Shown in pieces: positions 3,528-52,951 of a stretch of 54,378 bases of DNA (the stretch's first letter is position 1; every line of letters starts with the position of its first letter). The position numbers and the translations under genes were made by a program. The notes beneath the pieces were generated by a model that ran no database searches, was not told the DNA's origin, and saw only the letters and a program-made list of their open reading frames with translations. The stretch lies in IMG/VR virus record IMGVR_UViG_3300014501_000023, positions 1-54,378 of that record. One strand, 5' to 3'. Origin of the DNA: a virus.

Positions 3528-3844
3528 TCGAGCGCCCTCTGCAGCAGCGTCGCGCTCGACTTGATGACACCGCCCGCACGGTTGGCCATGACCTCCTCGA
3601 GCGCGACCGTGCGCTCGCGCCCGTCCGCGCGGTTGAGCGCGCGCCGCAGCCGCACCAGCACGTCGCGGCGCGGCTCGGGACGGCCAAAGTACTCCAGCCT
3701 GAGCAGCCTCCTGATCCCGGTCGCCGACGGCCTGGTCATCAGCACATCGTTTAGTTTGGCCAAGTTTCCTAAAATCAACGCTCGCACCTGGTCGTCGTCG
3801 AGCGCGTCGATCTCGGTGAGTCCCTTCGGCTGCGCGCGGGCCAT
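3524..3844 (-). CDS. Hypothetical protein
   Basis: 106 residues from the ATG at 3844-3842, which shares its first base with the stop of the upstream gene (TGATG). Longer in-frame starts would only read through the Lys/Ala tail of that gene in the wrong frame. The product is basic and helical, with an Arg-rich centre (RRLLRLEYFGRPEPRRDVLVRLRRALNR region). No family is recognised; the charge suggests nucleic-acid contact, which is inference. Confidence 0.65.
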   Translation of the reverse strand: MARAQPKGLTEIDALDDDQVRALILGNLAKLNDVLMTRPSATGIRRLLRLEYFGRPEPRRDVLVRLRRALNRADGRERTVALEEVMANRAGGVIKSSATLLQRALE

Positions 3845-4737
3845 CAGAACTTCGCCCTCGTCGCTCCGCCCTTCGCCGCCGGCGCGCCGCCCTTCTTCGC
3901 CGCCTTCGCCGGCGTCTTGCCGTTGCCCCTGGCAGGCTTGGCCTTCTTCGCCGGAGTCTCCTGCACGGTGACCGGCATCGGCCGCTGCAGGACCTTCGAT
4001 GACAGGATCTCCTCGCGCAGCGCGAGCACCTTCCGCGCCATGCCCACGTCGCTGATCGCCAGGTAACTGATCGGCACCACGGCCTTGCGCTTCTGCTCGA
4101 CGCGGTCGTTCTTGTTGAACGAGAAGCTGGTGATCACGCCCTCCGGGGGCCGGTGGACGATCTTGTTCAGGTTCGCGATGTACTTCCCCCACAGCGTGAG
4201 CGCGGTGGGCGGGAGCGCGAGTATGGCCCAGCGCAGGTCCTGCCCGTCATTGAAGGCGGGATCGTCGGCCATGACGACCGCCAGCACCCGGCGGTTCGCG
4301 CACGCCTTGCCCCGCCCGACCTCGGCCGAGCCGAACGCGTTCATCTCGCACGTCCTGCAGTCGTGGTTGTCCGTGCCGCCCTGGATGTCCGGGCTCGTCG
4401 GGTGGGCGTGCATCGCATCCTCGCCCGTGTCTGGCAGGATCTTGCCGTCCTCGCCGAACTCGGCGATGGGCCCGACGGCGAAGCACGCCGGCGGGGAGGA
4501 CGAGTGCGGGTCGTAGCCTTCCGTGTAGTACACGTTGAGCAGGGCCTCGGCCACCACGATCACGTTGAGCGGATCGGGCAGCACCTGGTCCCCGATCCTG
4601 AAGACCTGATCGTTCGCGGAAATCCTCGGCGCGCCCTCCGGAGCCGGTGCCGCCCTGGCCGCGATCGCGCCGCGCGCCGCGTACAGGTTCTCGAGGTCCT
4701 TCATAGTGGAAAGTGCCTTTCCGGGTTTCTTAGCCAT
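3844..4737 (-). CDS. Conserved phage protein with Cys motif and basic Lys/Ala/Pro tail; possible ssDNA-binding protein
   Basis: 297 residues. The centre carries a Cys cluster, with PPACFAVGP near residue 85, then HDCRTCEMNAFGSAEVGRGKAC around 125-147, followed by NRRVLAVVM, a layout I associate with a widespread but uncharacterised phage family encoded near replication genes. The last about 45 residues are Lys, Ala, Pro and Gly (histone H1-like tail), consistent with binding DNA. Its place in the left arm and the basic tail make a single-strand or recombination-associated DNA-binding role plausible, but this is not shown. It overlaps the next upstream gene by 8 bases. Confidence 0.7.
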   Translation of the reverse strand: MAKKPGKALSTMKDLENLYAARGAIAARAAPAPEGAPRISANDQVFRIGDQVLPDPLNVIVVAEALLNVYYTEGYDPHSSSPPACFAVGPIAEFGEDGKILPDTGEDAMHAHPTSPDIQGGTDNHDCRTCEMNAFGSAEVGRGKACANRRVLAVVMADDPAFNDGQDLRWAILALPPTALTLWGKYIANLNKIVHRPPEGVITSFSFNKNDRVEQKRKAVVPISYLAISDVGMARKVLALREEILSSKVLQRPMPVTVQETPAKKAKPARGNGKTPAKAAKKGGAPAAKGGATRAKF

Positions 4738-4993: not shown

Positions 4994-5229
4994 CACGTTA
5001 ATTCTCGCTGCATACGCTCTATGTGCGCATTGAGTTTCGCCAGCGCCAGCGCGAGGTTCGCCTCGACCACCGGCGCGTCCGCCGGGTCGCCGCCGCCCTT
5101 CCACGAATCGGCCACCTCGGCTTCGACGTACTCATTGATGAGTGCGCGCAGCGCGTTCCAGTCGGTCTCGGCGCGGCGCTGGGCTAACGATTTGCCGCGA
5201 GGCGCCGCGATCTTCGCACGAGCGTTCAT
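4993..5229 (-). CDS. Hypothetical protein, helical
   Basis: 78 residues with a basic N-terminus (MNARAKIAAPRGKS) and two predicted helices ending in ALAKLNAHIERMQRELT, a heptad-like stretch that could form a coiled coil. Overlaps its upstream neighbour by 4 bases (ATGA). No function is evident. Confidence 0.65.
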   Translation of the reverse strand: MNARAKIAAPRGKSLAQRRAETDWNALRALINEYVEAEVADSWKGGGDPADAPVVEANLALALAKLNAHIERMQRELT

Positions 5230-5672
5230 CGGCGCGACGCCTTCGCCAGCTCGCCGAGCAGCCTGCGCGAGCTCTTCTGCACGCTCAGCGACACGCGCTG
5301 GAACGGCTCGACCCCGGGAACTGCGCGCTTCTTATCGTTGCGCTCGCGCCACGCCGCCGTGTTGACCTGGCGCATGAGCAAGTCGTCATTACCCTTGAGC
5401 GAGGCGAACTTGAAGAACCGCTTCCAGTCCTTGAGCGACGGCACGGTCGACTTCTTGATCGCGAGCGTGAGACCCGAGCCTTTCGCGCCGTCGAGCTTTG
5501 ACTTCGCCACGGTGCGCAGCAGGTGCTCGCGCAGCGCGTCCCACTCGTCCTCGGCCGGCCTGCCCTTCGCCGCGGCCGCCTCGATCGCGGCCTTGAGCTC
5601 CGCGAGTCGCGCGATGCAATGCCCCAAGTCCGCGGGGAACCGGTACTTCTTGCCTTTGATCTTATCGACCAC
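5226..5672 (-). CDS. Conserved phage protein of unknown function
   Basis: 148 residues. The second half contains the sequence types KDWKRFFKFA, DLLMRQVNTAAWRER and AVPGVEPFQRVSLSV, which I recognise as a conserved block of an uncharacterised phage family (variants of ERxxxGxxVPGVEPF). It is the first gene after the AT-rich promoter-like gap at 5673-5764, so it probably opens a transcription unit running down to thyX. The start (GTG or ATG region at 5672) is preceded by AGGAGAG on the minus strand, an acceptable ribosome-binding site. Confidence 0.78.
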   Translation of the reverse strand: MVDKIKGKKYRFPADLGHCIARLAELKAAIEAAAAKGRPAEDEWDALREHLLRTVAKSKLDGAKGSGLTLAIKKSTVPSLKDWKRFFKFASLKGNDDLLMRQVNTAAWRERNDKKRAVPGVEPFQRVSLSVQKSSRRLLGELAKASRR

Positions 5673-6541: not shown

Positions 6542-6637
6542 CTACTGGTTCCTGTAACTGATGACCAACAACAGGCCGACGCACACGATCAGGCCCCCGA
6601 CGAGGAACAGCAGCGCGCCCACATCGCCCCTGTTCAT
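6542..6637 (-). CDS. 31-residue single-pass membrane protein
   Basis: ATG at 6637-6635 to TAG at 6544-6542. After MNRGD comes one hydrophobic segment of about 20 residues (VGALLFLVGGLIVCVGLLLV), then ISYRNQ. A GGGGGAAG stretch lies about 9 bases upstream on the minus strand. It is one of a chain of tiny membrane proteins here. Function unknown; holin-like accessory roles are possible but unproven. Confidence 0.5.
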   Translation of the reverse strand: MNRGDVGALLFLVGGLIVCVGLLLVISYRNQ

Positions 6638-6718
6638 TCAGCTACTTCCCCCGTATAACAAGAACGCGAGGAACCGAGCCGTGGCGATGGCGGACATCAA
6701 TAGCACCAGGCGCAGCAT
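6638..6718 (-). CDS. 26-residue hydrophobic peptide
   Basis: ATG 6718-6716 to TGA 6640-6638, ending directly against the start of the next small membrane gene. Contains one hydrophobic stretch (LRLVLLMSAIATARFLAFLL). The ribosome-binding site is weak. Kept because it exactly fills the space between two genes in the same orientation; could still be chance. Confidence 0.35.
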   Translation of the reverse strand: MLRLVLLMSAIATARFLAFLLYGGSS

Positions 6719-6725
6719 GAAGCGG

Positions 6726-7007
6726 TCACCGCTGTCCATCGTCGCGCCCACAGTCGCAGCCCATCGGCACCGGCTCGTGCCCGAAGTCCCACGCCGAATG
6801 CGTGATGCTGTCGCCGCAGCCGCAGACGTCGGGGTCTATCTCGTTGCCGCAACCGGCGCAGCGCGGTCGCCTCAGCTCGACCCTCACGCCGACCGCGAAA
6901 CCAAACCAGTAGACCAAATACACCTTCCCGCCGTACAGCGGGCCGGCGTAGGTGCCGAAGTTAGGCGGCCAAGGACTTAAGGCGGTTCGGTATGCGAGGA
7001 GCTTCAT
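6726..7007 (-). CDS. Cys-rich, putative zinc-binding phage protein
   Basis: 93 residues from ATG 7007-7005, coupled to the upstream lipoprotein gene by ATGA. The C-terminal part has CAGC, then CGCGDSITH and HEPVPMGCDCGRD: a Cys/His set typical of small phage zinc-binding proteins in which the PVPMGC block is conserved. The N-terminal half is aromatic and hydrophobic (GKVYLVYWFGFAVGV). The longer in-frame start at 7313 reads the lipoprotein gene out of frame. Function unknown. Confidence 0.65.
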   Translation of the reverse strand: MKLLAYRTALSPWPPNFGTYAGPLYGGKVYLVYWFGFAVGVRVELRRPRCAGCGNEIDPDVCGCGDSITHSAWDFGHEPVPMGCDCGRDDGQR

Positions 7008-7297
7008 GGCCCGGCGCCCACCACGAAGCACCCGCCCCCGTCGGCCTCGGCCCTGCAGACGATGTCGTCGCGTCGCTTGCTCGGTCGCGGCGGCTGGGGC
7101 GGAGGCGGTGTTGGTACCGCCTGCTCCTGCAGCTCGCTGATCAGCTCGGCGCGCTGCTGCGTGAGGTCTGCGATCTGCGCCCTGAGCCCGGCCTCGTTTT
7201 CCACGCACGGCGCGACCGCGGCGAGCTTCGGGTCTGCGGGCTGCGGCCCACAGCCGGCGAGGAGCGCAGCGAGGACGAACAGCTTGTGACGATTCAC
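7004..7297 (-). CDS. Putative lipoprotein with coiled coil and Pro-rich segment (possible outer spanin)
   Basis: 97 residues starting MNRHKLFVLAALLAGC: a short basic n-region, hydrophobic core and a lipobox LAGC (Cys at residue 16), so lipidation and outer-membrane anchoring are likely. Next comes a short predicted coiled coil (LRAQIADLTQQRAELISEL) and a Pro-rich stretch (VPTPPPPQPPRP). Small lipoproteins of this build next to tiny membrane proteins are often outer spanins of Gram-negative phages; no matching inner spanin is clear, so this is tentative. Confidence 0.68.
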   Translation of the reverse strand: MNRHKLFVLAALLAGCGPQPADPKLAAVAPCVENEAGLRAQIADLTQQRAELISELQEQAVPTPPPPQPPRPSKRRDDIVCRAEADGGGCFVVGAGP

Positions 7298-7319
7298 GGC
7301 GTGTCCAACTCATTCAGTT

Positions 7320-7694
7320 TCATCGCGCTTCGACTCCTGGTTTTTTCTCCACGTCGCACCACAGGCCGAGCAGCTCGTGCGAGTCGCTCGCGACTGTGTA
7401 CTTGTAGTCGCAGATTCGGCCGTCGCGCAGCCGCAGCGAGTCGACGTCAGTGATCTTCGGCCCGCAGCCGCTCCCGGCCGGTATCCACTCGCGCACCCAG
7501 CCGCGACCGTTCACGTCTTTGATCACCTTGCCGCACTCGGTCGCCACGGCCGGTGCGACCCATTTGCTCGTGTCCGGTGGTGCCGGATCTCTGACCGCCG
7601 CTATCCACGCAACCACCGCCACGCCTGCGACGGCGAGCGCGCACGCAGCGAGCAGCATCCCGCGCGGTATCCCTTCGTCGTCCTGCGCCCTCAT
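7320..7694 (-). CDS. Exported or single-pass membrane protein with Cys residues
   Basis: 124 residues from ATG 7694-7692, chosen because AAGGAG lies 8 bases upstream; the in-frame ATG at 7730 is inside the neighbour. Residues about 13-33 (MLLAACALAVAGVAVVAWIAAV) form one transmembrane segment or uncleaved signal. The remaining about 90 residues contain four Cys (ATECGK, GSGCGP, RICDYK, LWCDVE), suggesting a disulfide-bonded periplasmic domain. No family recognised. Confidence 0.65.
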   Translation of the reverse strand: MRAQDDEGIPRGMLLAACALAVAGVAVVAWIAAVRDPAPPDTSKWVAPAVATECGKVIKDVNGRGWVREWIPAGSGCGPKITDVDSLRLRDGRICDYKYTVASDSHELLGLWCDVEKKPGVEAR

Positions 7695-7699
7695 CCCCC

Positions 7700-7945
7700 T
7701 CACTCCTTGTAGACCAGGCCGCGCCGCCACTCGAGCGCGTACATGTAGGGCTCGCCCGCCGTGTTCACCTTCACCACGAGCCGCATGCCGTAGAGGTACG
7801 GCGCGGCGCGGCGGAGCAGGTTCGGTTCAAGCGGCGCTGGCCTCCAGTCGTGGCCGCGCGAGAACAGCGGCTCTGGCCCGCTGACCATATTGTTGCGCCA
7901 GGAGAGCCACGCGTCCCTGAACGCCCGGGTGTGGGTGACGCTCAC
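7700..7945 (-). CDS. Hypothetical protein
   Basis: 81 residues from GTG 7945-7943 (GTGA coupling to the upstream membrane gene). The in-frame start at 8140 would read that gene and the tRNA-like element out of frame. Contains AWLSWRNNM and PYLYGMRLVVKVN; hydrophilic with aromatic patches. No family recognised. Confidence 0.6.
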   Translation of the reverse strand: MSVTHTRAFRDAWLSWRNNMVSGPEPLFSRGHDWRPAPLEPNLLRRAAPYLYGMRLVVKVNTAGEPYMYALEWRRGLVYKE

Positions 7946-8109
7946 AGCCGCGCCTCCAACGCGCGCAGCCGGTCGATGACCCAGAGGAACCAGCGCATCG
8001 AAGTGTCGCCGAACGGGAGCAGCAGGCCGATCAGCACGATGACGAACAGCACGATGACCGTGGCGATCCCGGCGAGCGTCGCGGCGACGGGGTTGAGCGG
8101 GCGGTTCAT
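7942..8109 (-). CDS. 55-residue membrane protein
   Basis: ATG 8109-8107 to TGA 7944-7942. MNRPLNPVAATLAG is followed by a hydrophobic span of about 20 residues (IATVIVLFVIVLIGLLLPF) and an amphipathic basic tail (RWFLWVIDRLRALEARL). It overlaps the downstream gene by GTGA and starts 8 bases below the tRNA-like element, so translation may depend on processing of that RNA. No clear Shine-Dalgarno. Function unknown. Confidence 0.55.
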   Translation of the reverse strand: MNRPLNPVAATLAGIATVIVLFVIVLIGLLLPFGDTSMRWFLWVIDRLRALEARL

Positions 8110-8116
8110 TTGGAAA

Positions 8117-8205
8117 TGGTGGAGAGTCTACGAATTGCACGTAGGCATCCTGTTAGGGAACCGGGCCTACAACCCGGTGCGGCGTCTATAACCACTTACC
8201 TCTCC
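8117..8205 (-). tRNA. tRNA-like element, candidate tRNA-Tyr(GTA), divergent
   Basis: Read on the minus strand from 8205 to 8117 (89 nt). Acceptor GGAGAGG pairs with ACTCTCC at six of seven positions (7-66 is G-A), followed by a discriminator A and an encoded CCA. The anticodon arm is a perfect 5-bp stem CCGGG/CCCGG with a 7-nt loop TTGTAGG, giving U33 and anticodon GTA. The 16-nt variable region can form a short arm, as expected for class II tRNA-Tyr. The T stem CTACG/CGTAG is perfect, but the loop is TGCAATT rather than TTCRANY, and the D arm is irregular. It fills the gap between two genes. It could be a functional divergent tRNA or a decayed one. Confidence 0.45.
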
Positions 8206-8207
8206 AG

Positions 8208-8438
8208 CTAATGCCCATAATTACAACCAACTTTCGCCCGTCGTCCGGCGATAATTACATGCGCGTCAAAAAATCCGCAACACCCGTGCCGCTTTGCGCG
8301 TCGATACCGCTTCAGTGAAGCTCGGTCACTCTTATAAGCCAGCCGTTCATTGTCGGTGCAGTGATCATTTACCTGTTTGTACATCCAACATAGAGCTTGC
8401 GCTTCTGTCAGAAACACGGGAAACCCGAGCACGTTCAC
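8208..8438 (-). CDS. Hypothetical basic Cys-containing protein
   Basis: 76 residues, basic in the centre (SDRASLKRYRRAKRHGCCGFF), with Cys at several positions. Lower G+C than neighbouring genes, which may point to separate acquisition. Overlaps the upstream gene by 4 bases. No family recognised. Confidence 0.55.
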   Translation of the reverse strand: MNVLGFPVFLTEAQALCWMYKQVNDHCTDNERLAYKSDRASLKRYRRAKRHGCCGFFDAHVIIAGRRAKVGCNYGH

Positions 8439-8782
8439 GGCTTCTGCTCCTTGTCGCTTTGTTTCTCGACGTAACCACGTCGTTCCATTTCTTTTATCTC
8501 TTCATCAGTGAAAAGCGAACGCGGAACGCTCATCGTCCCACGAATTATCCTTGAGCGACGGTCCTCTTCGGTAACAGGTAGCGGCACGAAATTCGCTCCG
8601 GGCAAGTCCCGCTCCAAATACACCCAGCCCATGCGCGTGTTCGTGTCCTCCTCCGGCGCGATGCGCCAGCCGGCCTGCATCAACAGCATCAGGTTGGCGT
8701 CGCGCCGGTTGACCAGCATCAGCTCGCGCGGCCGCGACGGCGGAGCGGCGCGGAACAGCAGGCGACGCAGCCAGGCGATCAT
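8435..8782 (-). CDS. Hypothetical protein sharing a C-terminal motif with the gene at 18386
   Basis: 115 residues. The N-terminus is amphipathic and basic (MIAWLRRLLFRAAPPSRPRE). Near the C-terminus is TMSVPRSLFTDEEIKEM followed by ERRGY; the plus-strand protein at 18386-18679 has TMSVPRSCFTEDEITEM followed by KRRGY at its C-terminus. Both also carry a short preceding strand-rich region with an acidic/aromatic character. The shared block suggests a common small domain or duplicated gene with a shared partner. Function unknown. Confidence 0.65.
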   Translation of the reverse strand: MIAWLRRLLFRAAPPSRPRELMLVNRRDANLMLLMQAGWRIAPEEDTNTRMGWVYLERDLPGANFVPLPVTEEDRRSRIIRGTMSVPRSLFTDEEIKEMERRGYVEKQSDKEQKP

Positions 8783-9042
8783 TCGATGAGCCTAACGTAC
8801 TCACCCATCCGATGCCGCAGCGAAGCGTCCGATTCGCCGAGCGCGCGGACGAGACGCGGTACGCCGAAGAACGCCACGGCAGCGTCCAGCGAGTTGATCT
8901 CGAACAACACCTCCGACTTGTAATCCCACCCCAGCCACCCACCGGCCGGCGGCAGGAACACCGTGCGCCGGCCCGGCACCCACAGCTCGCCCGGCGCGAG
9001 CGCGGCGGCCGCGAGTATCGAGAACAGTTCGCGGCGGTTCAT
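8779..9042 (-). CDS. Hypothetical protein with twin-Arg-like hydrophobic N-terminus
   Basis: 87 residues from ATG 9042-9040. MNRRELFSILAAAALAPGEL resembles a signal peptide, with an RR pair followed by a short hydrophobic stretch; it is weak as a Tat signal because the hydrophobic core is short. The mature part has GGWLGWDYKSEVLFEINSLD. Start choice is supported by the tight junction with the upstream gene. Unknown function. Confidence 0.58.
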   Translation of the reverse strand: MNRRELFSILAAAALAPGELWVPGRRTVFLPPAGGWLGWDYKSEVLFEINSLDAAVAFFGVPRLVRALGESDASLRHRMGEYVRLIE

Positions 9043-9239
9043 TAGTCCTCTGTCGGTTTCCAAGGTGCCATCGCGGCAAACCGCTCTTGTAATTCTCGGC
9101 GAAGTTGCGCAGCGACTTCCGTTTGACCAATTGGCCACACCCCACCATAAGCGTGACGGACTACGGCGTCGATGTAATCGAGCAGGGCGCTGTTGACCGG
9201 GTGCGCAGATTGCGTCCACTCGATAAGAGGCTTATTCAC
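9042..9239 (-). CDS. Hypothetical protein
   Basis: 65 residues from GTG 9239-9237, coupled by GTGA to the upstream membrane gene; the in-frame start at 9323 gives a 28-residue Arg/Gly extension that is the neighbour read out of frame. Contains WTQSAHPVNSALLDYIDAVV and a basic helix (AAQLRRELQERFA). No family recognised. Confidence 0.58.
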   Translation of the reverse strand: MNKPLIEWTQSAHPVNSALLDYIDAVVRHAYGGVWPIGQTEVAAQLRRELQERFAAMAPWKPTED

Positions 9240-9370
9240 AGGAACACCGCCCAGACCAGCGCCGCCACCGCGCCGACCAGCAGCACCGCGCGCAGCGTCG
9301 CCCCGGCGGCGAACACGAGCCACAGGAAGATGCCGAGGCAGGCGAGGTCGATCTCGTGGGCGTGCGTCAC
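9236..9370 (-). CDS. 44-residue membrane protein, two hydrophobic segments
   Basis: GTG 9370-9368 to TGA 9238-9236, overlapping both neighbours by 4 bases. After MTHAHEID the chain is hydrophobic almost to the end: LACLGIFLWLVFAAGATL, an Arg, then AVLLVGAVAALVWAVFL. This would give one long or two short membrane spans in a hairpin. Size and build fit a small holin or other membrane peptide, but nothing else supports that. Confidence 0.55.
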   Translation of the reverse strand: MTHAHEIDLACLGIFLWLVFAAGATLRAVLLVGAVAALVWAVFL

Positions 9371-9525
9371 GGCCCGCACCCGCTCGCCTTCGCGCCGCCG
9401 TCCTGCGGAGCGCAGGCGCTGGGGATCGTCAGGCTCAGCGTGCCGCCGCGGTGCAGGTAGACGGCGACGGCGGCGAGCAGCAGCACGAACAGCGTCGTGA
9501 TGACGATGGCGGTGCGCTCGCTCAC
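9367..9525 (-). CDS. 52-residue single-pass membrane protein
   Basis: GTG 9525-9523 to stop at 9367, overlapping both neighbours by 4 bases. MSERTAIVITT is followed by a span LFVLLLAAVAVYLH, then a short external tail with two Cys (SACAPQDG and SGCGP), which suggests a periplasmic disulfide. The longer in-frame start at 9645 reads neighbours out of frame. Confidence 0.55.
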   Translation of the reverse strand: MSERTAIVITTLFVLLLAAVAVYLHRGGTLSLTIPSACAPQDGGAKASGCGP

Positions 9526-9632
9526 GTCGGCCCCCAGCCGCAGCAGGCGAACAGCGCGAGATAAGCGCTGTAGAGGACGCCGAGGGTCAACAACGCTGCG
9601 CCAGCGAGCAGCAGGGCAGTTCGTTTTTTCAT
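9522..9632 (-). CDS. 36-residue hydrophobic protein
   Basis: ATG 9632-9630 (TGATG-type junction with the upstream lipoprotein gene) to a stop at 9522. MKKRTALLLAGAALLTLGVL is a basic start plus a hydrophobic core, followed by YSAYLALFACCGWGPT. It may be a signal anchor or a very small membrane protein. Confidence 0.5.
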   Translation of the reverse strand: MKKRTALLLAGAALLTLGVLYSAYLALFACCGWGPT

Positions 9633-10141
9633 TTCGTTTTCCCATTCGTCGTGAACACGGGGCCGATGATCATTGGGGCGCCAGTTTTGAACGTCAGCGG
9701 CTCGCTCTGCACGCACGGCCCGGTGTCGGGCGGCTGCGGCAGCGACGCCGCGATCTCGCGCCCGAGCGCCAAGTTGCGGTCGATGCTGTCGGCCTCCGGC
9801 GGCACGATCCTCGAGCGACTCTCACGGACGTCGTCGGCGGACAGGCTGAGGAACTGGAGGTACTTGCCGCGCACCCGCGCATCATCTATGCGCAGCGCCC
9901 ACGCCTGCAGCGCCTTGATCTTCGCGTCCGCGCAATCCAGCAGCGCGGCGGAGGCGTGGATGTCCACCTCCATCATCACGCCCGCATCGCGCAAGTTGTC
10001 GCTCACGGCGAAGTTGAGCGCCTGGTCGGGCACGCCGCCAGAGGCCGTGGTGGCGGTCACGTTCGACGGCGGCATCGGGGTCGGGGCTTCGCTGCAGGCG
10101 GCGAGCGCGAGGGCGGCGAGCAACAGCGGTAGGGTCTTCAT
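9629..10141 (-). CDS. Putative lipoprotein
   Basis: 170 residues from ATG 10141-10139. MKTLPLLLAALALAAC is a typical lipoprotein signal with lipobox LAAC (Cys 16), followed by a Pro/Ser linker (SEAPTPMPPSN). The mature domain is hydrophilic with paired helices (IKALQAWALRIDDARV; KYLQFLSLSADDVRESR) and a Cys pair. The in-frame start at 10246 is in the neighbour. Probably anchored to the outer or inner membrane facing the periplasm. Function unknown; an outer spanin is less likely at this length. Confidence 0.68.
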   Translation of the reverse strand: MKTLPLLLAALALAACSEAPTPMPPSNVTATTASGGVPDQALNFAVSDNLRDAGVMMEVDIHASAALLDCADAKIKALQAWALRIDDARVRGKYLQFLSLSADDVRESRSRIVPPEADSIDRNLALGREIAASLPQPPDTGPCVQSEPLTFKTGAPMIIGPVFTTNGKTK

Positions 10142-10563
10142 TGCTTGATGCACCTGTAGTTGCCGGTACGGTCGTATTCGGCGGCCAGCCCCCTGGCAAT
10201 CTCGCACGCCTTCTCTGATACCGACGCTACCGATGAATCCTTGCATTGTTCACCCGCGACGCAGTGCCTCAGCACGTAAGGCACGCGCTCGAAAGGGGCG
10301 ACGGAAGTGGACGGCTCGGGCTCCACCGACTGCCACTGCGATGTGGGTCGCTGGTCACACTCGTACCATACATTAGAGCCACCGCTGGACCCTGTCCTGT
10401 GGAATCGACCGCCGATGAGGCGGCCGGGGCCGAGCCGCGTGGCCAGGACCTGGGCGCACTGCGCCGCTGATTGGAACAGCCAGGGCGCGCCTACCAGACT
10501 GCAATAGGCGCGTCCGTCTGCCATGCCGACGCACATCATGATCGCGTAGATCATGGCGTTCAC
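10138..10563 (-). CDS. Cys-rich, possibly exported protein
   Basis: 141 residues from GTG 10563-10561 (GTGA coupling); an internal ATG lies 3 codons later. The start is hydrophobic (MNAMIYAIMMCVGMADG) and resembles a short signal. The rest contains about eight Cys (AYCSL, QCAQV, YECDQ, RHCVAGEQC, KACEI, YRCIKQ), which suggests a disulfide-stabilised extracytoplasmic protein. No family recognised. Confidence 0.6.
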   Translation of the reverse strand: MNAMIYAIMMCVGMADGRAYCSLVGAPWLFQSAAQCAQVLATRLGPGRLIGGRFHRTGSSGGSNVWYECDQRPTSQWQSVEPEPSTSVAPFERVPYVLRHCVAGEQCKDSSVASVSEKACEIARGLAAEYDRTGNYRCIKQ

Positions 10564-10730
10564 TTGCGCCGCTCCGGCGACGACTCGCCCAGCCACTTCC
10601 TGAGCCGCGCCTTCAGCGGCGCACCCCGCTTGTGCCCGGGGCGGCGCCTCACCTCGAACCGCCTGTGCAGCGGCGGCAGCACGAGCGCGGCGGCAAGCGC
10701 CAGGATCACGTACCAGTACCAGTTCTTCAT
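10560..10730 (-). CDS. 56-residue membrane protein with basic tail
   Basis: ATG 10730-10728 to TGA 10562-10560, preceded by a clear AAAGGAG site. MKNWYWYVILALAAALVLPPL is one membrane span; the remaining about 33 residues are Arg/Lys-rich (HRRFEVRRRPGHKRGAPLK and so on), so the C-terminus is expected in the cytoplasm. Coupled by GTGA to the next gene. Unknown function. Confidence 0.6.
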   Translation of the reverse strand: MKNWYWYVILALAAALVLPPLHRRFEVRRRPGHKRGAPLKARLRKWLGESSPERRK

Positions 10731-11437: not shown

Positions 11438-13495
11438 TCAGAACTTCTCCTTCTTCTTCGCGTCCGCGCCCATGTAGTGCGCCGCCCTCGCCGAGTGGTC
11501 CGCCGCCTCCCACCTCGCGCGGTTCCGTACCGGCCACAGATGCGTGCGCCCGCGCGCCGTGCGCGTCATGGACGGGGCGGCGAGTCCCGCGCGGCGCAAG
11601 GCCATCGCGACCGACCGCTCGGTGAGCCGCGCGCGCTTGTCGGGGTCGAGCATCGCCACGAGCTCCGCGGACGTGAAGAGATCGCGCGCGACCTCGGAAT
11701 CGCCCACGCGCAGGTACGCCTCTGGCCCCTCGAGGAGGGCGCGTACCAGGTGGTCGGACTCGGTGCCGCTCGCCGCTGCCATCTGATCGCGCGCCTCCGT
11801 GACCGGCGACCGCCCGCGCGGGTCGAAGCCGACTGTGTCCACGTCGAGCAGGTACCGCATCAGCGCCCCGGGCGCCTCAGGTCCCTTGTACCACGTATCG
11901 TACTCGCGGTTGAACCAGTCGTCCGGGGGCTTCACCTCGAGCTGGCGCGGGCCTACCTCGTGGACGAAGAACCTCCGGTCCTGGTCCTCTATCACGAGCG
12001 CGTCGTGCTGGTTGGACGTGAAGACGAAGTTGACGCAGTTGCGCACGGCGTACGGGGCCTGGTACTTCTCGTTGACCGTCGCGGTCTCGCCCGATATGAT
12101 GTGCTTGAGCCTGTTAGCCTCGACCCGCCTGTCCGAGCCGGTGATCTCCTCGCCCAGCACGAGCTGGCGGTTCGCCTGCCAGGAGTTGAAGGAGTTGTGG
12201 AGCTCCGCCTCGGTGATGACCGCGAAGGCCTCGCCGTACACGCGACCTACGGTATAAGGCACCAGGCTCTTGCCCGTGCCGGTGTCCCGGCCCCAGATGA
12301 GGCACGCCGTATAGAGTTTGGCGCCCGGGTTCTGCACCGGGTAGGCGAGCCACTGCAGGAACCAGCGCCGGTGTTCGCGCGGGCAGTCGTAAAAGAGATA
12401 ATCCAGCAGCGTGGTGAACATCGACACGTCGCCGCGCTTAGGCTGCGCCGGCCAACCGCGCCACAGGTTCACGCAGCCGTCGGGCAGGGCGAGCGGCTCG
12501 CCGGGCTCGTACGCCACGCCGGCCGCGACGCGGTGGTGGGGCCAGCGCAGCCACTCGGACACGGCGTTGAGCTCCGTCATGCGCCCGGCCGCGTCGAGCC
12601 CGGACACCCGGCGGTGCGCGTAGTGCAGGTCTATCAGCGGCCGCGAGGCCTTGAACATCGTGCGCGTGCGGAGGTGGAGCAGCGCCGAGGGGTGTTCTAT
12701 CACCACCAGCTCGTCGTTGAGCCTGATGAGCTCGGCGCCCGAGGCCAGCGTATTGACCTCGAGCTTTCTGAGCGCCGCGATCCCGCGCGCGACCAGGAAG
12801 TCGTCAAGTCCGGTCTTATCCGCCTCGTCGAGCAGCGGCATGGCGAGTGCACCCACGCTGGCGCCGCGCTGCTCGAGCGCGTGGCCCAATGCCTCGAGCG
12901 CGCCCAACACCATGGGGTTGGCGTCGGCCTCGGCGTCGAACGCGAGCACGACGCGCCGCGCGCGCCACTGGACGATGACGAGGTCCGGGATGAGCGGCTG
13001 TCTGGCTTTCGTGCTCCGCCAGCTCCACACCCCACCCAGTCCGATCGTCGGGACGCCGGCCGCGCAGGCGGCGGCCGCCTTCTTCTCGCCCTCGGTGATC
13101 CAGAGCTCGCACGACGCGTCGCCGAGCACGCGCGCCCAGTCGACGCCGGGCGCGAGGTACGCGCGCACGTCCGTGTCTGGCGGCTGCCAGTAGCGCGGCG
13201 TCTTCTTCTGCACGCCGAAGGCGCGCGGCGCGTCGAGGAATTTCAATCTGTAGAAGCCGGTGTCGCGACCGCGCGCATCGAGGTACGGAATGCGGGCTGA
13301 TCGCACGCGGTACTTGCCTCCAGTGAGGACCTCGGTCTCGTCCGAGGTCAGCGCCTCGAGCTTCATTTTTCTGTAGTCGGCTTCGGTGAGTCCGCTACGC
13401 CTGAGGTCCGCGAGCGCCATGGCCCGCGGCAATTGCACTATCTTATTGTCGCTGGACACGGTGCGCGTCCGCACGAGCCTGAGACGAGCTCCCAT
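11438..13495 (-). CDS. DNA primase/helicase: DUF3854 TOPRIM-like domain plus DUF5906/D5-type SF3-like helicase
   Basis: 685 residues. The N-terminal half (about 115-240) has TOPRIM-like elements: LWITEGEKKA at 131-140 (catalytic Glu), LAFDAEAD at 184-191 and DKTGLDDF at 226-233, as in DUF3854 domains. The C-terminal half holds a P-loop GRDTGTGKS at 402-410, an acidic Walker-B-like VLGEEI near 447, and VNFVFTSN near 500, which fits DUF5906/D5-type replication helicases. It should unwind and prime at the origin; no phage DNA polymerase is seen, so host polymerase is presumably used. ATG 13495 has GGAG 9 bases upstream. It is the first gene left of the control region. Confidence 0.9.
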   Translation of the reverse strand: MGARLRLVRTRTVSSDNKIVQLPRAMALADLRRSGLTEADYRKMKLEALTSDETEVLTGGKYRVRSARIPYLDARGRDTGFYRLKFLDAPRAFGVQKKTPRYWQPPDTDVRAYLAPGVDWARVLGDASCELWITEGEKKAAAACAAGVPTIGLGGVWSWRSTKARQPLIPDLVIVQWRARRVVLAFDAEADANPMVLGALEALGHALEQRGASVGALAMPLLDEADKTGLDDFLVARGIAALRKLEVNTLASGAELIRLNDELVVIEHPSALLHLRTRTMFKASRPLIDLHYAHRRVSGLDAAGRMTELNAVSEWLRWPHHRVAAGVAYEPGEPLALPDGCVNLWRGWPAQPKRGDVSMFTTLLDYLFYDCPREHRRWFLQWLAYPVQNPGAKLYTACLIWGRDTGTGKSLVPYTVGRVYGEAFAVITEAELHNSFNSWQANRQLVLGEEITGSDRRVEANRLKHIISGETATVNEKYQAPYAVRNCVNFVFTSNQHDALVIEDQDRRFFVHEVGPRQLEVKPPDDWFNREYDTWYKGPEAPGALMRYLLDVDTVGFDPRGRSPVTEARDQMAAASGTESDHLVRALLEGPEAYLRVGDSEVARDLFTSAELVAMLDPDKRARLTERSVAMALRRAGLAAPSMTRTARGRTHLWPVRNRARWEAADHSARAAHYMGADAKKKEKF

Positions 13496-16722: not shown

Positions 16723-18389
16723 CCGTGCTGCGCCGCTTGCTCTCCTGGTTGCGTCCCAAGGTCGCCACTGGCGCCGGGCTCGACGCGGTCGTCAGTAGCC
16801 GTGCCGATAAGTACGCGTCGCCGGCGGACGGACTGATGCGGGCGCAGCAGGAGGCGGAGCGGGCGCAGGTGGAGGCGTTCACGCAGTCGGTGAAGGCGGC
16901 GTGTGACAGGATCCAGGTGTGGCAGCCGCCGGCGCCGGGCGCTGCGATGGACGCGAAGGACTCGCTGGTCTCGCTGTCGTCGGCGATGGATTCGTCGGAG
17001 AACGGGCTGCCGATGTTCAAGCAGGTGATGCTTGAGTTCGGCACGCAGATGCAGCTGCTGCCGTGGTACATGCGGCAGGGCTTCATCGGTTACCAGAACG
17101 CGGGCTTCATCGCGCAGAACTGGCTTGTGTACAAGGCGTGCGCGGTGCCGGTGGACGACGCGGTGCGCAATGGGTACGAGATAACCACCGCCACGGGCGA
17201 AGACCTGGACGAAGACGCGCTGAAGATCATCAAGGCGGCGGATCGCCGCATGGGCATCAAGGGCCAGTTGCGCCAGTTCGGCATCAAGGGTCGCATCTTC
17301 GGCATCCGCATCGCGATGTTTGAAGTGACGAGCGATGATCCGGATTACTACCAGAAGCCGTTCAACCCGGACGGCGTCAAGGCCGGCACGTACAAGGGCA
17401 TCTCGCAGGTGGACCCGTACTGGTGCGCGCCGATCCTGGACAGCACCTCCGCGGCCACGCCCTCGTCGCGGCATTTCTACGAGCCCACGTGGTGGCTGAT
17501 CGGGTCGCGCCGCGTGCACCGCACGCACCTCGTGATCTTCCGCTACGCCGAGCCGGCCGACGTGATCAAGCCCCTGTACCTGTTCGGCGGCATCCCGCTG
17601 CCGCAGATGATCATGGAGCGCGTGTATTGCGCCGAGCGCACGGCGAACGAAGCCCCGGCGCTGGCGCTGTCGAAGCGCAGCACGGTGTGGATGACGGACA
17701 TGGACAGGGTGATGGCCGACTCCGCGAAGGCGGACCAGGTGATGCGGGAATGGATCTGGCGGCGCGACAACTTCGGCGTCAAGCTCGGCGACAAGGCCTC
17801 GGAGGAGTTCCAGCAGTTCGACACGCCGCTCGCCGACTTCGACTCGCTGGTATGGACGCAGTACGGGCTGGTGGCTTCCACCGCCGGCTGCCCCATAACG
17901 AAGCTCCTGGGTACCACGCCCGGCGGGTTCGCGGCGACGGGCGAGTACGACGAGTCCTCGTACCACGAGGCGGAGGAGTCGCTGCAGGAGCGCGACCTTA
18001 CGCCGTTCCTCGAGCGCCACCACCAGCTGGTGATGCGTTCGGAGGTGGTGCCGAAGTTCCCCGATCTGGCCGACGTCGAGCTGGTGGCCAAGTGGAACGA
18101 GCTGGATGCGCTGACGCATGTGGAGCAGTCGGTGGTGAATTTGAACAAGGCGCAGACGGCCGCCGCGCTGATCGCCACGGGTGCGTTGTCGCCGCAGGAT
18201 GAACGGGCGCGCATTGCGGCGGACAAGGAGAGCGGGTATCACGGTATTGGCGTGGACCTGGTCGTCGAGGATCTGCCCGAGACCGACGACCCGGAAGCCG
18301 CTGGCGAAGCGGCGGGGCCGGCGAGGCGCTCGGCGAAGGCGGCGGAGATGGAAGAGGGCAAGGTTAAGTCGAATGGGGCCGGTGCATGA
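16719..18389 (+). CDS. Portal protein, DUF1073 family
   Basis: 556 residues; forms the dodecameric DNA channel at one head vertex. The DUF1073 signature region is clear: QNWLVYKACAVPVDDAVRNGYEI (about 133-155), GIRIAMFEV, VDPYWCAPI, HRTHLVIFRYAEPADVIKP, and the late LLGTTPGGFAATGEYD (about 402-417). The C-terminal tail is low-complexity (Glu/Ala/Lys), as usual for portals. The start is TTG 16719, overlapping the terminase stop (TTGA); GTG 16725 is possible. DUF1073 portals are sometimes labelled Acb1-like in databases; here position and length argue for portal. Confidence 0.93.
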   Translation: MTVLRRLLSWLRPKVATGAGLDAVVSSRADKYASPADGLMRAQQEAERAQVEAFTQSVKAACDRIQVWQPPAPGAAMDAKDSLVSLSSAMDSSENGLPMFKQVMLEFGTQMQLLPWYMRQGFIGYQNAGFIAQNWLVYKACAVPVDDAVRNGYEITTATGEDLDEDALKIIKAADRRMGIKGQLRQFGIKGRIFGIRIAMFEVTSDDPDYYQKPFNPDGVKAGTYKGISQVDPYWCAPILDSTSAATPSSRHFYEPTWWLIGSRRVHRTHLVIFRYAEPADVIKPLYLFGGIPLPQMIMERVYCAERTANEAPALALSKRSTVWMTDMDRVMADSAKADQVMREWIWRRDNFGVKLGDKASEEFQQFDTPLADFDSLVWTQYGLVASTAGCPITKLLGTTPGGFAATGEYDESSYHEAEESLQERDLTPFLERHHQLVMRSEVVPKFPDLADVELVAKWNELDALTHVEQSVVNLNKAQTAAALIATGALSPQDERARIAADKESGYHGIGVDLVVEDLPETDDPEAAGEAAGPARRSAKAAEMEEGKVKSNGAGA

Positions 18390-18679
18390 CGCGTTTTACA
18401 TTGAGGATGGGCAGTGCGCCGTTGCGCGCAGAAGATGTGGACGCTGTAGTCAGCGTTCTTTTGCCACTACTCGATGAAGGCAACCAGAGCGTGCTGCAGG
18501 ACTGGGCGTATCTCTGCAGCCATGATTTTGAACGATTGTGCAAAGACGGCTACCTCGTGGAGGTTTGCCCCGCAGCGTCCGACGCCGAGCGATGGGCGCC
18601 GGAGGTCACGATGAGTGTCCCGCGCTCTTGTTTCACTGAGGACGAAATCACGGAAATGAAACGTCGTGGTTATGCGTGA
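18386..18679 (+). CDS. Hypothetical protein sharing a C-terminal motif with the gene at 8435
   Basis: 97 residues, overlapping the portal stop by 4 bases (ATGA). The C-terminus reads TMSVPRSCFTEDEITEM then KRRGYA, nearly the same as the minus-strand protein at 8435-8782. The body contains a helical acidic part (EDVDAVVSVLLPLLDEGNQS) and a Cys-containing strand (DGYLVEVCPAASD). Role unknown; its place after the portal does not by itself make it structural. Confidence 0.65.
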   Translation: MTRFTLRMGSAPLRAEDVDAVVSVLLPLLDEGNQSVLQDWAYLCSHDFERLCKDGYLVEVCPAASDAERWAPEVTMSVPRSCFTEDEITEMKRRGYA

Positions 18680-19046
18680 CGTGAGGTACGCACTGCTCCT
18701 GCTGCTGCTGCTGCTCGCGCCGTTTGCCGCGCGCGCCGACTGCCTGCACAACTGGATGCAGTGCCCCATTGACTCATCGCTCCAAGTCAACAGTTTTACG
18801 ATACAGGCGGCTGCGACCATCGAGGCGATCACCACGGCGCGCACCGCGGCCACCAGGCGGCTGCAGCGCCACGCCATCACGGTTACGCAGGCGAAGGTCG
18901 TGCTGGCCGAGACCGATCTGGGACGCGGCCTGTGGGACGCGGCCCGCGTTGCATGCCACGCGGACGTGCACGGCAACTGCGACACTGCGGCGGACTCCCG
19001 CAAGGCGTTTGCGTTACTTGATCAAGCGCGAGGGACACTCCAATGA
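18672..19046 (+). CDS. Exported protein, unknown function
   Basis: 124 residues from ATG 18672 (GTG 18666 and GTG 18681 are in-frame alternatives). MRDVRYALLLLLLLLAPFAARA is a Sec signal with a leucine-only core and an ARA|D cleavage site. The mature part starts with a Cys pair (CLHNWMQC), continues with helical Ala/Thr-rich sequence, and has a second pair (ACHADVHGNC), suggesting disulfides in the periplasm. An exported protein between portal and head genes is unusual. Confidence 0.68.
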   Translation: MRDVRYALLLLLLLLAPFAARADCLHNWMQCPIDSSLQVNSFTIQAAATIEAITTARTAATRRLQRHAITVTQAKVVLAETDLGRGLWDAARVACHADVHGNCDTAADSRKAFALLDQARGTLQ

Positions 19047-28406: not shown

Positions 28407-30695
28407 ATGAGGAGGCTGCTCCTCCCGCTTCTACTCTCAGCGTGCGCCGTTTTTTCGCCGCTGAGGGCGGCCGAGGTTGGCGGCTACAATAACGCCGGGC
28501 CGGCCACTCCCACAGACCGGATACTAGAGGACCAGGCCGGCGTCACGGTAAATGCCACGCCGCTGCAGCTGGCCACCTACACTTTCGGTTACGAAGCTAC
28601 GCGCGTCGTGACGGCCTCGGGCGCCGTGACCATGGCCGTGGCCGACTACAACGTCTGCGTCAACAAGGGCACGCCGGCTGCGACCACGGTCAACCTGCCG
28701 GCGAGCCCGACGACCGGGCAGGCGTACACCATAGGCGACTGCGCGGGCAATGCCGCGACCTATAACATCACGGTCACGCCAGCGGCCGGGAACATCGACG
28801 GCTCCTCGACCTTCCCGATTTCCAGCAACTGGGGCGTCTGGGACGGCTACTACGACGGCACACAGTGGAAGACCACCGCCTCGTACCCATCGAGCGGCAG
28901 CGGTCTCACCGCGCTGACCGGGGTGGTGAGCGCGAGCGGCACCGGAAGCGTCGCGACGACTCTCAACTGGACGCCGGGCTCTTATTACGACGTCGCGAAC
29001 CCGTCATACGCCGGGGGCGTGTACTGCGACGACTCGCACAACGATGCCCCAGCCGTCCAGGCAGCGTACGCCGCCGCTAGTGACGCCTCCATCGGCGGCG
29101 GCTATGCCTCGCTGATCTTTCCAGCCGGGAAAGAGTGCAAATTCTCGTGGGGAGTGGTCGAGACCAATATCGGCGTGCACTCGCTCGGCGGCGGCAACTA
29201 CTCGACGGTGATTGATCTTGAGCCGAGCATCAGCGTCTCCGGCGTGGCTATCGCCAGTACGGCCGGGGCGTTCACCACCAGCAGTTGCTCAGGCCTGACC
29301 GTCGGCAATCGGCTTAAGATTTCCGGCACGCTTGGTGGTTCTGGCTCAATCACTGGATACACGAATCCGAGCTATTACTATGTTTCTGCCGTGACCGGCA
29401 CGGCCTCTGCCTGCACCGGCTTCACGCTAAAGACGAACGCATCGCCCACGCCTGCCGCAATCGTCACGACTACCGGCACGCCAACCGGTCTGACTTACAC
29501 GGTCGTCGGCGTAGCGGCTTTCACGTTCGGCACGCTCGGCGCGGAGACCATCAACGATACCCTCGAGGGTATCGGGTTCATCAGCTTTGACAGCACCTAC
29601 ACCAAGATCGCGGTTGAAGCGTTGGACGTGGGTGGATTCCAACTGAAGGACATCTGCGTCGGCGTGGGCGGCGTGGCGTGGAGCGGCGGCCCAGCCATAC
29701 CGCCTGATACGCAGGCGGGCTCGATAGGCATACGAGCCTACGGGCGCGAGAATACGGACGTGGGCCCGGTAATCTGCAACCTCGCTGATAATCCCGAGGT
29801 CTGGTCGCCGAACCCGAACGATCCGAACGAAAACGAGGATCAGGACCACTGGCACTGGCACGACCAGCTCTTGACGCAATCCGGTACCAACGCCACCGGC
29901 TCCTGCCTAATTCGGATCGATCCCGGCGTCGGCTTAAGCAACACGACCGTCGACGGCCAGGAGGCGTGGGTCGCTGGTGATAATGGCGTCTGTAACAACG
30001 ATACGACGTCGACCGTTTCATCTTTTACGAGCACGTGGGGGCACGCGCGCTGGGAACAGGCGCCGGTGAGCACCGGGTACATGTTCTATTTCTCGTCTAA
30101 CAGCGAGTTCCAGGGCGCCCATATTTACGATGCCTACAACGGCTCGACGGCGAATGGCATTTACTGCCGCAAGTGCTACAGCTTGCAAGTGGACGGCTTC
30201 ACTGGTTCCGCAATGGGAGTCGCGTTTAATCTCGATAGCTCTGATTACGACGTTAATGCGCGCGGGATATGGCCGAACAGTGGCGCGACGAACACGGTCT
30301 CCGGTCAGACGCTGATAGAGGCCGACTACCTGTACGGGAATTCCAGCGTCCCGTATAACGCGACCTGGAGCAACAGCGCCCAGACGTACAACCGCACGGT
30401 CGGCGCCCAGTACTCCTTCTCCGGCAGCGCGCCCGCGGTCAGTGCTTGCGGGACGAGTCCTTCGATAGACTCCAACGCGACTAATGCGTCAGGCACCGTG
30501 ACGGTCGGCAGCGGCACCGACACGTCGTGCACGGTCACGTTCGCCGGCGGCGGCTACGCGACGTGGAACCACTGCCAGGTGAGCCCTGAGGCCGTTGACG
30601 CCGGTTTCGCCTACAGCTACACGAAGACGGTATTGACAGTCACTGCGACATCATTGACTTCTGAGAAGTTCGACTACAGCTGCAACGGTTTTTGA
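28407..30695 (+). CDS. Large exported beta-helix-like protein (tailspike/adhesin type)
   Basis: 762 residues. MRRLLLPLLLSACAVFSPLRA is a Sec signal, with a possible lipobox (LSAC, Cys 13) or an LRA|A cleavage site. After two beta-rich regions comes a block typical of pectate-lyase-like beta-helices: YDGTQWKT, then SYAGGVYCDDSHNDAPAVQAAYAAASD (about 195-220, the usual capping motif 'D..NDAPA.Q.A'), followed by irregular strands with Asn and Gly turns. Such folds carry glycan-binding or lyase sites in tailspikes. Adjacent to head genes rather than the baseplate. An export signal on a spike-like protein is unexpected. Confidence 0.7.
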   Translation: MRRLLLPLLLSACAVFSPLRAAEVGGYNNAGPATPTDRILEDQAGVTVNATPLQLATYTFGYEATRVVTASGAVTMAVADYNVCVNKGTPAATTVNLPASPTTGQAYTIGDCAGNAATYNITVTPAAGNIDGSSTFPISSNWGVWDGYYDGTQWKTTASYPSSGSGLTALTGVVSASGTGSVATTLNWTPGSYYDVANPSYAGGVYCDDSHNDAPAVQAAYAAASDASIGGGYASLIFPAGKECKFSWGVVETNIGVHSLGGGNYSTVIDLEPSISVSGVAIASTAGAFTTSSCSGLTVGNRLKISGTLGGSGSITGYTNPSYYYVSAVTGTASACTGFTLKTNASPTPAAIVTTTGTPTGLTYTVVGVAAFTFGTLGAETINDTLEGIGFISFDSTYTKIAVEALDVGGFQLKDICVGVGGVAWSGGPAIPPDTQAGSIGIRAYGRENTDVGPVICNLADNPEVWSPNPNDPNENEDQDHWHWHDQLLTQSGTNATGSCLIRIDPGVGLSNTTVDGQEAWVAGDNGVCNNDTTSTVSSFTSTWGHARWEQAPVSTGYMFYFSSNSEFQGAHIYDAYNGSTANGIYCRKCYSLQVDGFTGSAMGVAFNLDSSDYDVNARGIWPNSGATNTVSGQTLIEADYLYGNSSVPYNATWSNSAQTYNRTVGAQYSFSGSAPAVSACGTSPSIDSNATNASGTVTVGSGTDTSCTVTFAGGGYATWNHCQVSPEAVDAGFAYSYTKTVLTVTATSLTSEKFDYSCNGF

Positions 30696-30739
30696 TCCGA
30701 TGAAATCCGCGACAAGCGGCGCAGGTTTGAGGCAGTAAA

Positions 30740-36413: not shown

Positions 36414-37043
36414 ATGAAGATACTTCGTTCATTGATGTTGGCCGGTGCGCTGGCGGCGCTCGCTTGTGCGGCGGGTGCGCAGGTGCCCGGTGGGCTGTGG
36501 CGTTTCGGTACCACGGGCGCGTTTGCCCCGCAGCCCGGGGACTGCGTCAGCATTCTGGCGATGAATTCGAGCGGGCAGACGGGCACGGACTCGGCAACGC
36601 CATGTTCGCCCGCATTCCTCACTACTGCCTACACCAACGCGGCGCTCACAACCTACACCGCGGTCCTCGCCCTGCCGACCACTCAGGCTTCGACCGTGGT
36701 GGCCGGGGAGTGCGACTTAATCTGGGAGGACAGCTCGACCTCCGGCACCGCGACCTTCGCCGCCGGTCTCTCTGCGACGCCGACCGATCTCTGGGTCAAT
36801 GCTTCCTCGAGCGCTGGTGCGTACACGGCCCCCGCTTACACGACGATCGCAAACACCACGATCACCGCTGTCACTACTGCGCTGGCCGCTACCGCGGCGA
36901 CCACGCCCTACAGGACGCACCTGTCGTTCGTGCTGCAGAATTCCGCCATTGCGGCCAATATCTTGACTGTTTATGCACAATCAAATTCAGCGAGCTATAC
37001 ATTGACGGTCGAGCCCGGAAGCTGGTGCGCTTGGGTGCCGTAA
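36414..37043 (+). CDS. Exported beta-rich protein next to the sheath gene
   Basis: 209 residues. MKILRSLMLAGALAALACAAGA|QVPGG is a clear Sec signal (signal peptidase I site after AGA). The mature part is a Thr/Ala-rich beta-type domain (TAVLALPTTQASTVVAGECDLIWEDSSTSGTATF ... LSFVLQNSAIAANILTVYAQ) with Cys residues that could pair. AGGACAT lies upstream. An exported protein directly before the tail sheath gene is out of place for an ordinary myovirus. Function unknown. Confidence 0.7.
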   Translation: MKILRSLMLAGALAALACAAGAQVPGGLWRFGTTGAFAPQPGDCVSILAMNSSGQTGTDSATPCSPAFLTTAYTNAALTTYTAVLALPTTQASTVVAGECDLIWEDSSTSGTATFAAGLSATPTDLWVNASSSAGAYTAPAYTTIANTTITAVTTALAATAATTPYRTHLSFVLQNSAIAANILTVYAQSNSASYTLTVEPGSWCAWVP

Positions 37044-48067: not shown

Positions 48068-48331
48068 ATGTCCATACGTTCAACAGTCACCGCCGGTACC
48101 TGGCAGCAAGTCGGCACCGGGCCAGCGACCGTGCAGCTCATCTCCCCGGACGCCGACGAGGCCGAGGTCATGGTGGCGTGCGCCGCCTCGGCCCCCAGCA
48201 CCAACAGCGATGGCATGGTGCTGTATTCGCAGTACCCGGCGCACCTCTTCACGCTGACCGAGCCGATCTGGGCGCAGACGGTGCAAGCGGGGCTCACGGC
48301 CGAGGTGGCCGTGCAGCCGGAGGTCGCGTGA
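48068..48331 (+). CDS. Hypothetical fibre-associated protein
   Basis: 87 residues, strand-rich: IRSTVTAGTWQQVGTGPATVQLISPDADEAEVMVACAAS, then LTEPIWAQTVQAGLTAEVAVQPE. Small beta proteins of this kind often sit beside fibres. Overlaps the next GTG (GTGA). Confidence 0.62.
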   Translation: MSIRSTVTAGTWQQVGTGPATVQLISPDADEAEVMVACAASAPSTNSDGMVLYSQYPAHLFTLTEPIWAQTVQAGLTAEVAVQPEVA

Positions 48332-52216: not shown

Positions 52217-52951
52217 ATGAAGAAGATAATCCCGGTACTCGCGCTCGCAAGCCTGCTGTGCGCATGCTCGGTATTAGCGCCAAAGCCAACCGCGCGTGCC
52301 AAGTTTGGCGCAGTCGCGGCTACTCCATCGCCTAACGGCGCGAAGCTCGTGGGACCCACGGCGGCCGGCTCGCTGATAGATGCAACCGGCAACACCTGGA
52401 CGCTCACGGGCGGACAGCTCTCAGAGAACGGCGGCGCACCGACCGGCCTTAACATCATCCTGACCGAATACTGCGGTGGCCTGATCTATCAGGAGAACGC
52501 GAGCACCCTGTGGTGGGATTCGGTCAGCGGCGCGTGGGTCGCGACCACAGCGCCTGCTACGTGCGGGGCGATTATCGCCGCCGGTGGCAATGCGAACCTG
52601 AGCTGGACGCCGCCGACCACTGACGTGAAGGGGGGTCTGCTTGCGAGCACTCCTGGGGACGCGCTGACCGGTTTCAACATATACCAAGGCGTCGGCGCCG
52701 GCTCACTCGTCAAAATCGCGTCGGTGGCGGCCAACGTGCTCAACTACACCGTGAGCGGCCTGACCGTCGGCTCGTACACGTTCGCGGTCACAGCCACCAA
52801 CGCGGCCGGCGAGAGCGCGGACAGCCCGAGCCAGACCGCGAGCGTCGAGCCGGTGGTGCCGGCGGCTGCGGCGCCCGGCCCCGTGCTGACTTTCACCGTA
52901 GCGTGTTCGGGGCAGAATGGCGTCACGACCTGCACGGTGACGGTCCCGTGA
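52217..52951 (+). CDS. Putative lipoprotein with fibronectin III-like domain
   Basis: 244 residues from ATG 52217, with GAGAGG just upstream; in-frame ATG 52202 overlaps the preceding stop and would add MRGFE. MKKIIPVLALASLLCAC is a lipoprotein-type signal (lipobox L-C-A-C, Cys 17). Next is a strand-rich region (GNTWTLTGGQLSENGG; LWWDSVSGAWVATT), then residues about 110-205 match an FnIII domain: ANLSWTPPTTDVKGGLLAS, LTGFNIYQGVGAGSLVKIASV, YTVSGLTVGSYTFAVTATNAAGESADS. FnIII lipoproteins anchor to membranes and bind glycans. Unusual in a phage fibre cluster. Confidence 0.7.
   Translation: MKKIIPVLALASLLCACSVLAPKPTARAKFGAVAATPSPNGAKLVGPTAAGSLIDATGNTWTLTGGQLSENGGAPTGLNIILTEYCGGLIYQENASTLWWDSVSGAWVATTAPATCGAIIAAGGNANLSWTPPTTDVKGGLLASTPGDALTGFNIYQGVGAGSLVKIASVAANVLNYTVSGLTVGSYTFAVTATNAAGESADSPSQTASVEPVVPAAAAPGPVLTFTVACSGQNGVTTCTVTVP

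Follow-up and report, generated by a model that had tools for sequence, protein, structure and literature searches.

A variable interval beside a phage primase gene is packed with small, mostly orphan genes for predicted envelope-directed proteins

Phages encode envelope exclusion proteins such as Imm of T4 and the lipoprotein Llp of T5. Small accessory genes arranged in arrays are likewise a known kind of feature in phage genomes, as described in a review of phage small proteins (PMC11323111). Here we analyze an island of small genes on the minus strand, at positions 6542-10730, of the virus record IMGVR_UViG_3300014501_000023, the full length of which (54,378 bases, GC 65%) is referred to below as the window. 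It is the composition of this island that is unusual, not the kind of locus. The locus is defined by a primase gene and a conserved early gene, between which related phages differ in their sets of small genes, and the version found in the window is packed with products predicted to be directed to the envelope, which ordinary annotation would partly miss.

The interval could be delimited in eight records of relatives, corresponding to seven distinct phages (L063 and L065 are close kin). In all eight it is bounded by the primase (VapE-like in the window, 11438-13495, upstream border) and a homologue of the early gene at 5226-5672 (downstream border, both on the minus strand), while its length varies from 1.2 to 7.5 kb. 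Alignment confirmed the borders, with counterparts in ctUtU524 that are 35% identical for 5226-5672 and 32% identical for the early gene at 3844-4704. The former counterpart (L062:23178-23564, UOF79435.1) is labelled D-alanyl-D-alanine carboxypeptidase, a label that seems wrong; it looks like a conserved early protein. Within the interval, the relatives carry small genes unrelated to those of the island, and a search of the island proteins against the related loci gave no convincing match. Membrane and lipoproteins account for 9/93 called genes in the relatives (~10%) versus 9/19 in the window (Fisher p = 3e-4), and those of up to 60 amino acids for 3/93 versus 6/19 (p = 7e-4). Sequence comparison marks the locus as a variable accessory interval with conserved flanks and non-homologous content; unrelated contents between constant borders, together with the enrichment, thus point to an accessory locus that is here rich in putatively envelope-directed products.

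The genes were called based on codon usage, using open reading frames (ORFs) of at least 200 amino acids as the training set, and membrane spans and signals were assigned by hydropathy and motif rules, not by TMHMM/SignalP. Between 6.1 and 11.4 kb, 17 minus-strand genes were called, compared with a mean of 1.1 and a maximum of 5 in 200 dinucleotide shuffles. Genes of up to 60 amino acids with one or two spans numbered 6 in the island versus 0.02 in the shuffles, and span-bearing genes of this size make up 6/17 of the island calls versus 0/68 in the rest of the window (Fisher p = 3e-5). The codon score is highest in the own frame (of six) for every island ORF except tm56 (10560-10730) and g76 (8208-8438); the latter is accepted as coding because of its PHROG homology. 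All ORFs named in a preliminary description of this DNA are present at their minus-strand positions, and the GTGA or ATGA joins it had mentioned were found as 4-nucleotide overlaps at 11 of the 19 junctions. Its picture of an island of tiny envelope proteins holds as well: about 12 products carry a transmembrane span, a lipobox or a signal-like N-terminus, three to four of these being weak. Support is weakest for tm56 and sol65, and for the signal-like N-termini of 8779-9042 and 10138-10563. Overall, these results support reading the island as genuine small genes with envelope-directed products.

Starting from the primase side, the first member of this minus-strand chain, tm56, is preceded by GGAG and encodes 56 amino acids with a basic C-terminus; its N-terminal span, counted as such earlier, is borderline (mean hydropathy over 19 residues 1.49), and a PHROG search with it came back empty. 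A GTGA overlap links it to cysexp (10138-10563; at most 141 amino acids, 138 from a later ATG; best codon frame), which contains 8 Cys. The signal-like N-termini proposed for cysexp and for sig87 (8779-9042; 87 amino acids, MNRRELFSILAAAALAPG; codon score 17.8) proved weak, and no relative of either protein was found. The two proposed lipoproteins have clear lipoboxes: LAAC in lipo170 (9629-10141; 170 amino acids; strong codon score of 43.9), whose sole PHROG match is marginal and to a family of unknown function, and LAGC in lipo97 (7004-7297; 97 amino acids with a Pro-rich stretch, also supported by codon score), which showed no match in PHROG, spanin families included. Between lipo170 and sig87 lie tm36 (9522-9632; 36 amino acids, single span, ATGA overlap), tm52 (9367-9525; 52 amino acids, one span and a Cys-containing tail, GTGA overlap, codon score 15.5), tm44 (9236-9370; 44 amino acids, two spans, GTGA overlap, codon score 16.5) and the soluble sol65 (9042-9239; 65 amino acids, GTGA overlap). 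PHROG gave no match for the three membrane proteins, nor did NCBIfam for tm36 and tm52, and codon support for sol65 is weak, its score being the best of the frames yet slightly negative.

The next gene, g115 (8435-8782), encodes a soluble protein of 115 amino acids. A C-terminal motif of the type MSVPRSxFTxxEIxEMxRRGY is shared by g115, the plus-strand ORF 18386-18679 and an ORF of the relative L025 (L025:4176-4244), the two window ORFs being otherwise different. The neighbouring g76, a soluble Cys protein, belongs to phrog_33577 (E 1e-12) and has homologues in Edwardsiella phage ZHS, Otagovirus and Erythrobacter phage XM05. Its relatives sit within comparable small-gene arrays, and in L066, L067 and L068 (Otagovirus, Edwardsiella phage ZHS) the phrog_33577 gene is directly followed by a gene for a tiny membrane or exported protein, forming a recurring pair. 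In the window, a tRNA-like cloverleaf of 89 nucleotides (8117-8205) lies within the chain between g76 and tm55, with a long variable arm, an encoded CCA and GTA at the anticodon position (Tyr). Its minimum free energy structure is the full cloverleaf (z -2.5) and its surroundings are AT-richer; it was missed by ARAGORN and Rfam, and its D-loop lacks GG while the T-loop reads U-G-C.

Downstream of this element, tm55 (7942-8109; 55 amino acids, codon score 17.6) retains the membrane assignment made earlier with one strong span, its C-terminal part forming an amphipathic helix. It is followed by the soluble sol81 (7700-7945; 81 amino acids), supported by a GTGA overlap, a Shine-Dalgarno-like site and its codon score, and by cysTM (7320-7694; 124 amino acids, one N-terminal span and a Cys-containing domain), which has a codon score of 15.3, a Shine-Dalgarno-like site and no relative found. 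Beyond lipo97, an ATGA overlap leads to cysrich (6726-7007), a soluble Zn-ribbon-like protein whose C-terminal ribbon has relatives in L076 (76% over 41 amino acids) and L077 (52%). The chain ends with two gene calls encoding one span each, tm33 (6638-6739; 14-nucleotide overlap) and tm31 (6542-6637; 31 amino acids). The former had been listed as a protein of 26 residues; the span-encoding ORF is present, and is better read as 33 amino acids, with 26 counted from an internal ATG. The chain also includes two soluble Cys proteins that are not envelope-directed, g76 and cysrich, and these are the only members for which homology outside the window was found.

Based on database and genome searches, most island members are orphans, as expected of accessory genes with fast turnover. 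No close relatives of lipo170, cysTM, sig87, g76 or the early gene 3844-4704 were found among viral contigs, and tblastn against phage genomes returned none for g141, lipo170, cysexp, cysTM, sig87 and cysrich. The protein lipo170 was also absent from 25 related records in a search run without a positive control. In PADLOC, Pfam, NCBIfam and PHROG the island proteins matched nothing or families of unknown function, and no exclusion or defence family was hit, the exclusion-protein content of these libraries not having been checked. An assignment of tm55 as a TrbC/VirB2 pilin was rejected (26.7 bits versus a cut-off of 27.9), with its length and the lack of a conjugation context also speaking against it. 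A single amplified family was ruled out by the lack of paralogy among the members.

We lean, with modest confidence, towards reading the island as lineage-specific accessory genes of a replication-side operon whose products would act on the host envelope in exclusion, counter-defence or takeover. The island and the replication genes would probably form a single, tightly coupled operon on the minus strand, and the island products (small inner-membrane proteins, two lipoproteins and exported Cys-containing proteins) would arise on the replication side of the infection. These products would be inserted into the host envelope, where they may influence superinfection, membrane-linked defences or host envelope physiology, probably each independently of the others. 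By analogy, likely roles are the exclusion of other phages, the blocking of membrane-linked defences and an adjustment of the host envelope. The preliminary description had suggested a takeover or exclusion system; the location in an accessory interval beside replication genes fits such a putative role, and there is no sign of one system as opposed to independent genes.

Several observations weigh against the accessory reading. No island protein gets a function by homology; the single-sequence models of cysTM and lipo170 (mean predicted local distance difference test scores of 46 and 42) were too poor and were left unused for fold search; and a scan, in itself uninformative, gave no promoter indicating early transcription. 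Terminator-like hits outnumber those in shuffles. The remaining adverse points favour the main rival, namely that the island is wholly or partly an unrecognised lysis module, in which tm55 would be a holin, cysTM and lipo97 the inner- and outer-membrane spanins, and the other tiny membrane proteins holin or antiholin accessories. Among 54 related loci (958 kb) that were surveyed for density, the sole equally dense cluster (L039:2689-5526; IMG/VR 3300046557_000223), with 9 small membrane or lipoproteins in 4.2 kb, is a lysis module with an endolysin (E 2e-46) and Rz-like spanins (E 9e-6 and 6e-11) recognised by PHROG. That module also includes about five further orphan tiny membrane ORFs and lies upstream of primase and terminase. 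The order and topology of cysTM followed by lipo97 match those of a spanin pair. In SPP1, the endolysin and one holin are transcribed early (PMC6316719), so lysis genes can also lie on the replication strand. It had also been argued that a lysis cassette would have fewer members than the island; this argument fails because the module in L039 is equally dense, and for the same reason many tiny membrane ORFs alone cannot decide between a lysis cassette and an accessory island.

Nevertheless, we regard a lysis module as rather unlikely. The PHROG library that caught the endolysin and spanins of L039, which thereby serve as a positive control for the family search, catches none in the island: neither PHROG nor Pfam revealed an endolysin among the island proteins, and no spanin PHROG was matched by cysTM, lipo97 or lipo170. 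The endolysin-type domains PF01464, PF00959, PF01510 and PF13539 were not found in the contig (searches for PF00182 and PF05838 were uninformative, having no ringing control), and the only lysozyme domain detected belongs to a tail-region protein. The topology of tm55 and tm44 would suit a small holin with 1-3 membrane spans, and the PHROG holin match of tm55 (E 0.039) is at chance level. Furthermore, AXL3 and BcepF1, each the relative for one half of the genome, keep their lysis genes after the tail genes (an endolysin in AXL3, an endolysin and spanins in BcepF1). This post-tail position lies beyond the right end of the contig, so a contig without lysis genes says nothing about the whole genome, and by this comparison such genes need not come from the island. 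The earlier suggestion that it may hold holin and spanins thus finds no positive support. It is improbable, too, that the members assemble into a single multi-protein envelope machine such as an exclusion complex, as might be suggested by their contiguity, the overlapping starts and stops and the presence side by side of inner-membrane proteins, lipoproteins and exported proteins. The set is kept together in no relative, g76 and cysrich are found in unrelated phages that lack the rest, unrelated genes fill the interval of the relatives, and the members show no paralogy. We are equally doubtful of a single coordinated envelope-remodelling or exclusion apparatus built from a dozen new small protein families and encoded as one translationally coupled unit beside the primase. 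Least probable of all is that much of the island reflects over-prediction, with high-GC frames being hydrophobic by chance: codon scores are weak for tm56, sol65, tm36 and tm33, as are the signals of sig87 and cysexp, but shuffled sequence yields only about one gene, short overlaps join more than half of the junctions, and g76 and cysrich are conserved elsewhere.

With regard to the genomic context, the record looks incomplete even at its full length: the right edge of the contig cuts through a tail-region gene, and at its left no genes for DNA polymerase or helicase were seen, although relatives have both on the minus strand. From 13.5 kb leftwards, the minus strand encodes the primase, the island and early genes, ending with thymidylate synthase, while genes for terminase, portal, protease, major head protein, tail sheath and baseplate lie on the plus strand from 15.5 kb onwards. 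The portal shares 48-49% identity with its counterparts in BcepF1-like and related phages. Among known primases, the nearest come from ctUtU524, Pseudoxanthomonas phage PW916 and Stenotrophomonas phage AXL3 (35-37% identity), and searches of bacterial genomes with the primase gave remote matches only. In these three phages, as in the window, primase and terminase are divergent, and the replication genes of the three occupy the primase-side strand. Seven plus-strand ORFs amid the structural genes (18672-19046, 28407-30695, 36414-37043, 48328-49695, 49677-51632, 52217-52951 and 52903-54378) have signal-peptide-like or lipobox N-termini, which is unusual for a virion-gene region, and two very large genes of unknown function (28407-33307) lie between the head and neck genes.

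Screens for exclusion, counter-defence or lysis could draw on the island as a ready supply of small membrane proteins. The island resembles the accessory small early genes of tailed phages in its short, overlapping and mostly orphan genes that lie beside replication genes and vary between relatives, and differs from them in that about half of its called genes encode membrane or lipoproteins, versus about a tenth in the relatives' interval. With the L039 lysis module it shares the density of tiny membrane and lipoproteins in ~4 kb, whereas an endolysin and Rz-like spanins are recognised in that module and not in the island. The phrog_33577 neighbourhoods of Otagovirus and ZHS also place a tiny membrane protein gene after the g76 relative, but there is no obvious homology between the neighbouring membrane proteins, and in the island the tRNA-like element intervenes. 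Like T4 Imm and T5 Llp, the island products would be small membrane or lipoproteins made by the infecting phage; no family match was found for them, and this likeness is one of analogy, not homology.

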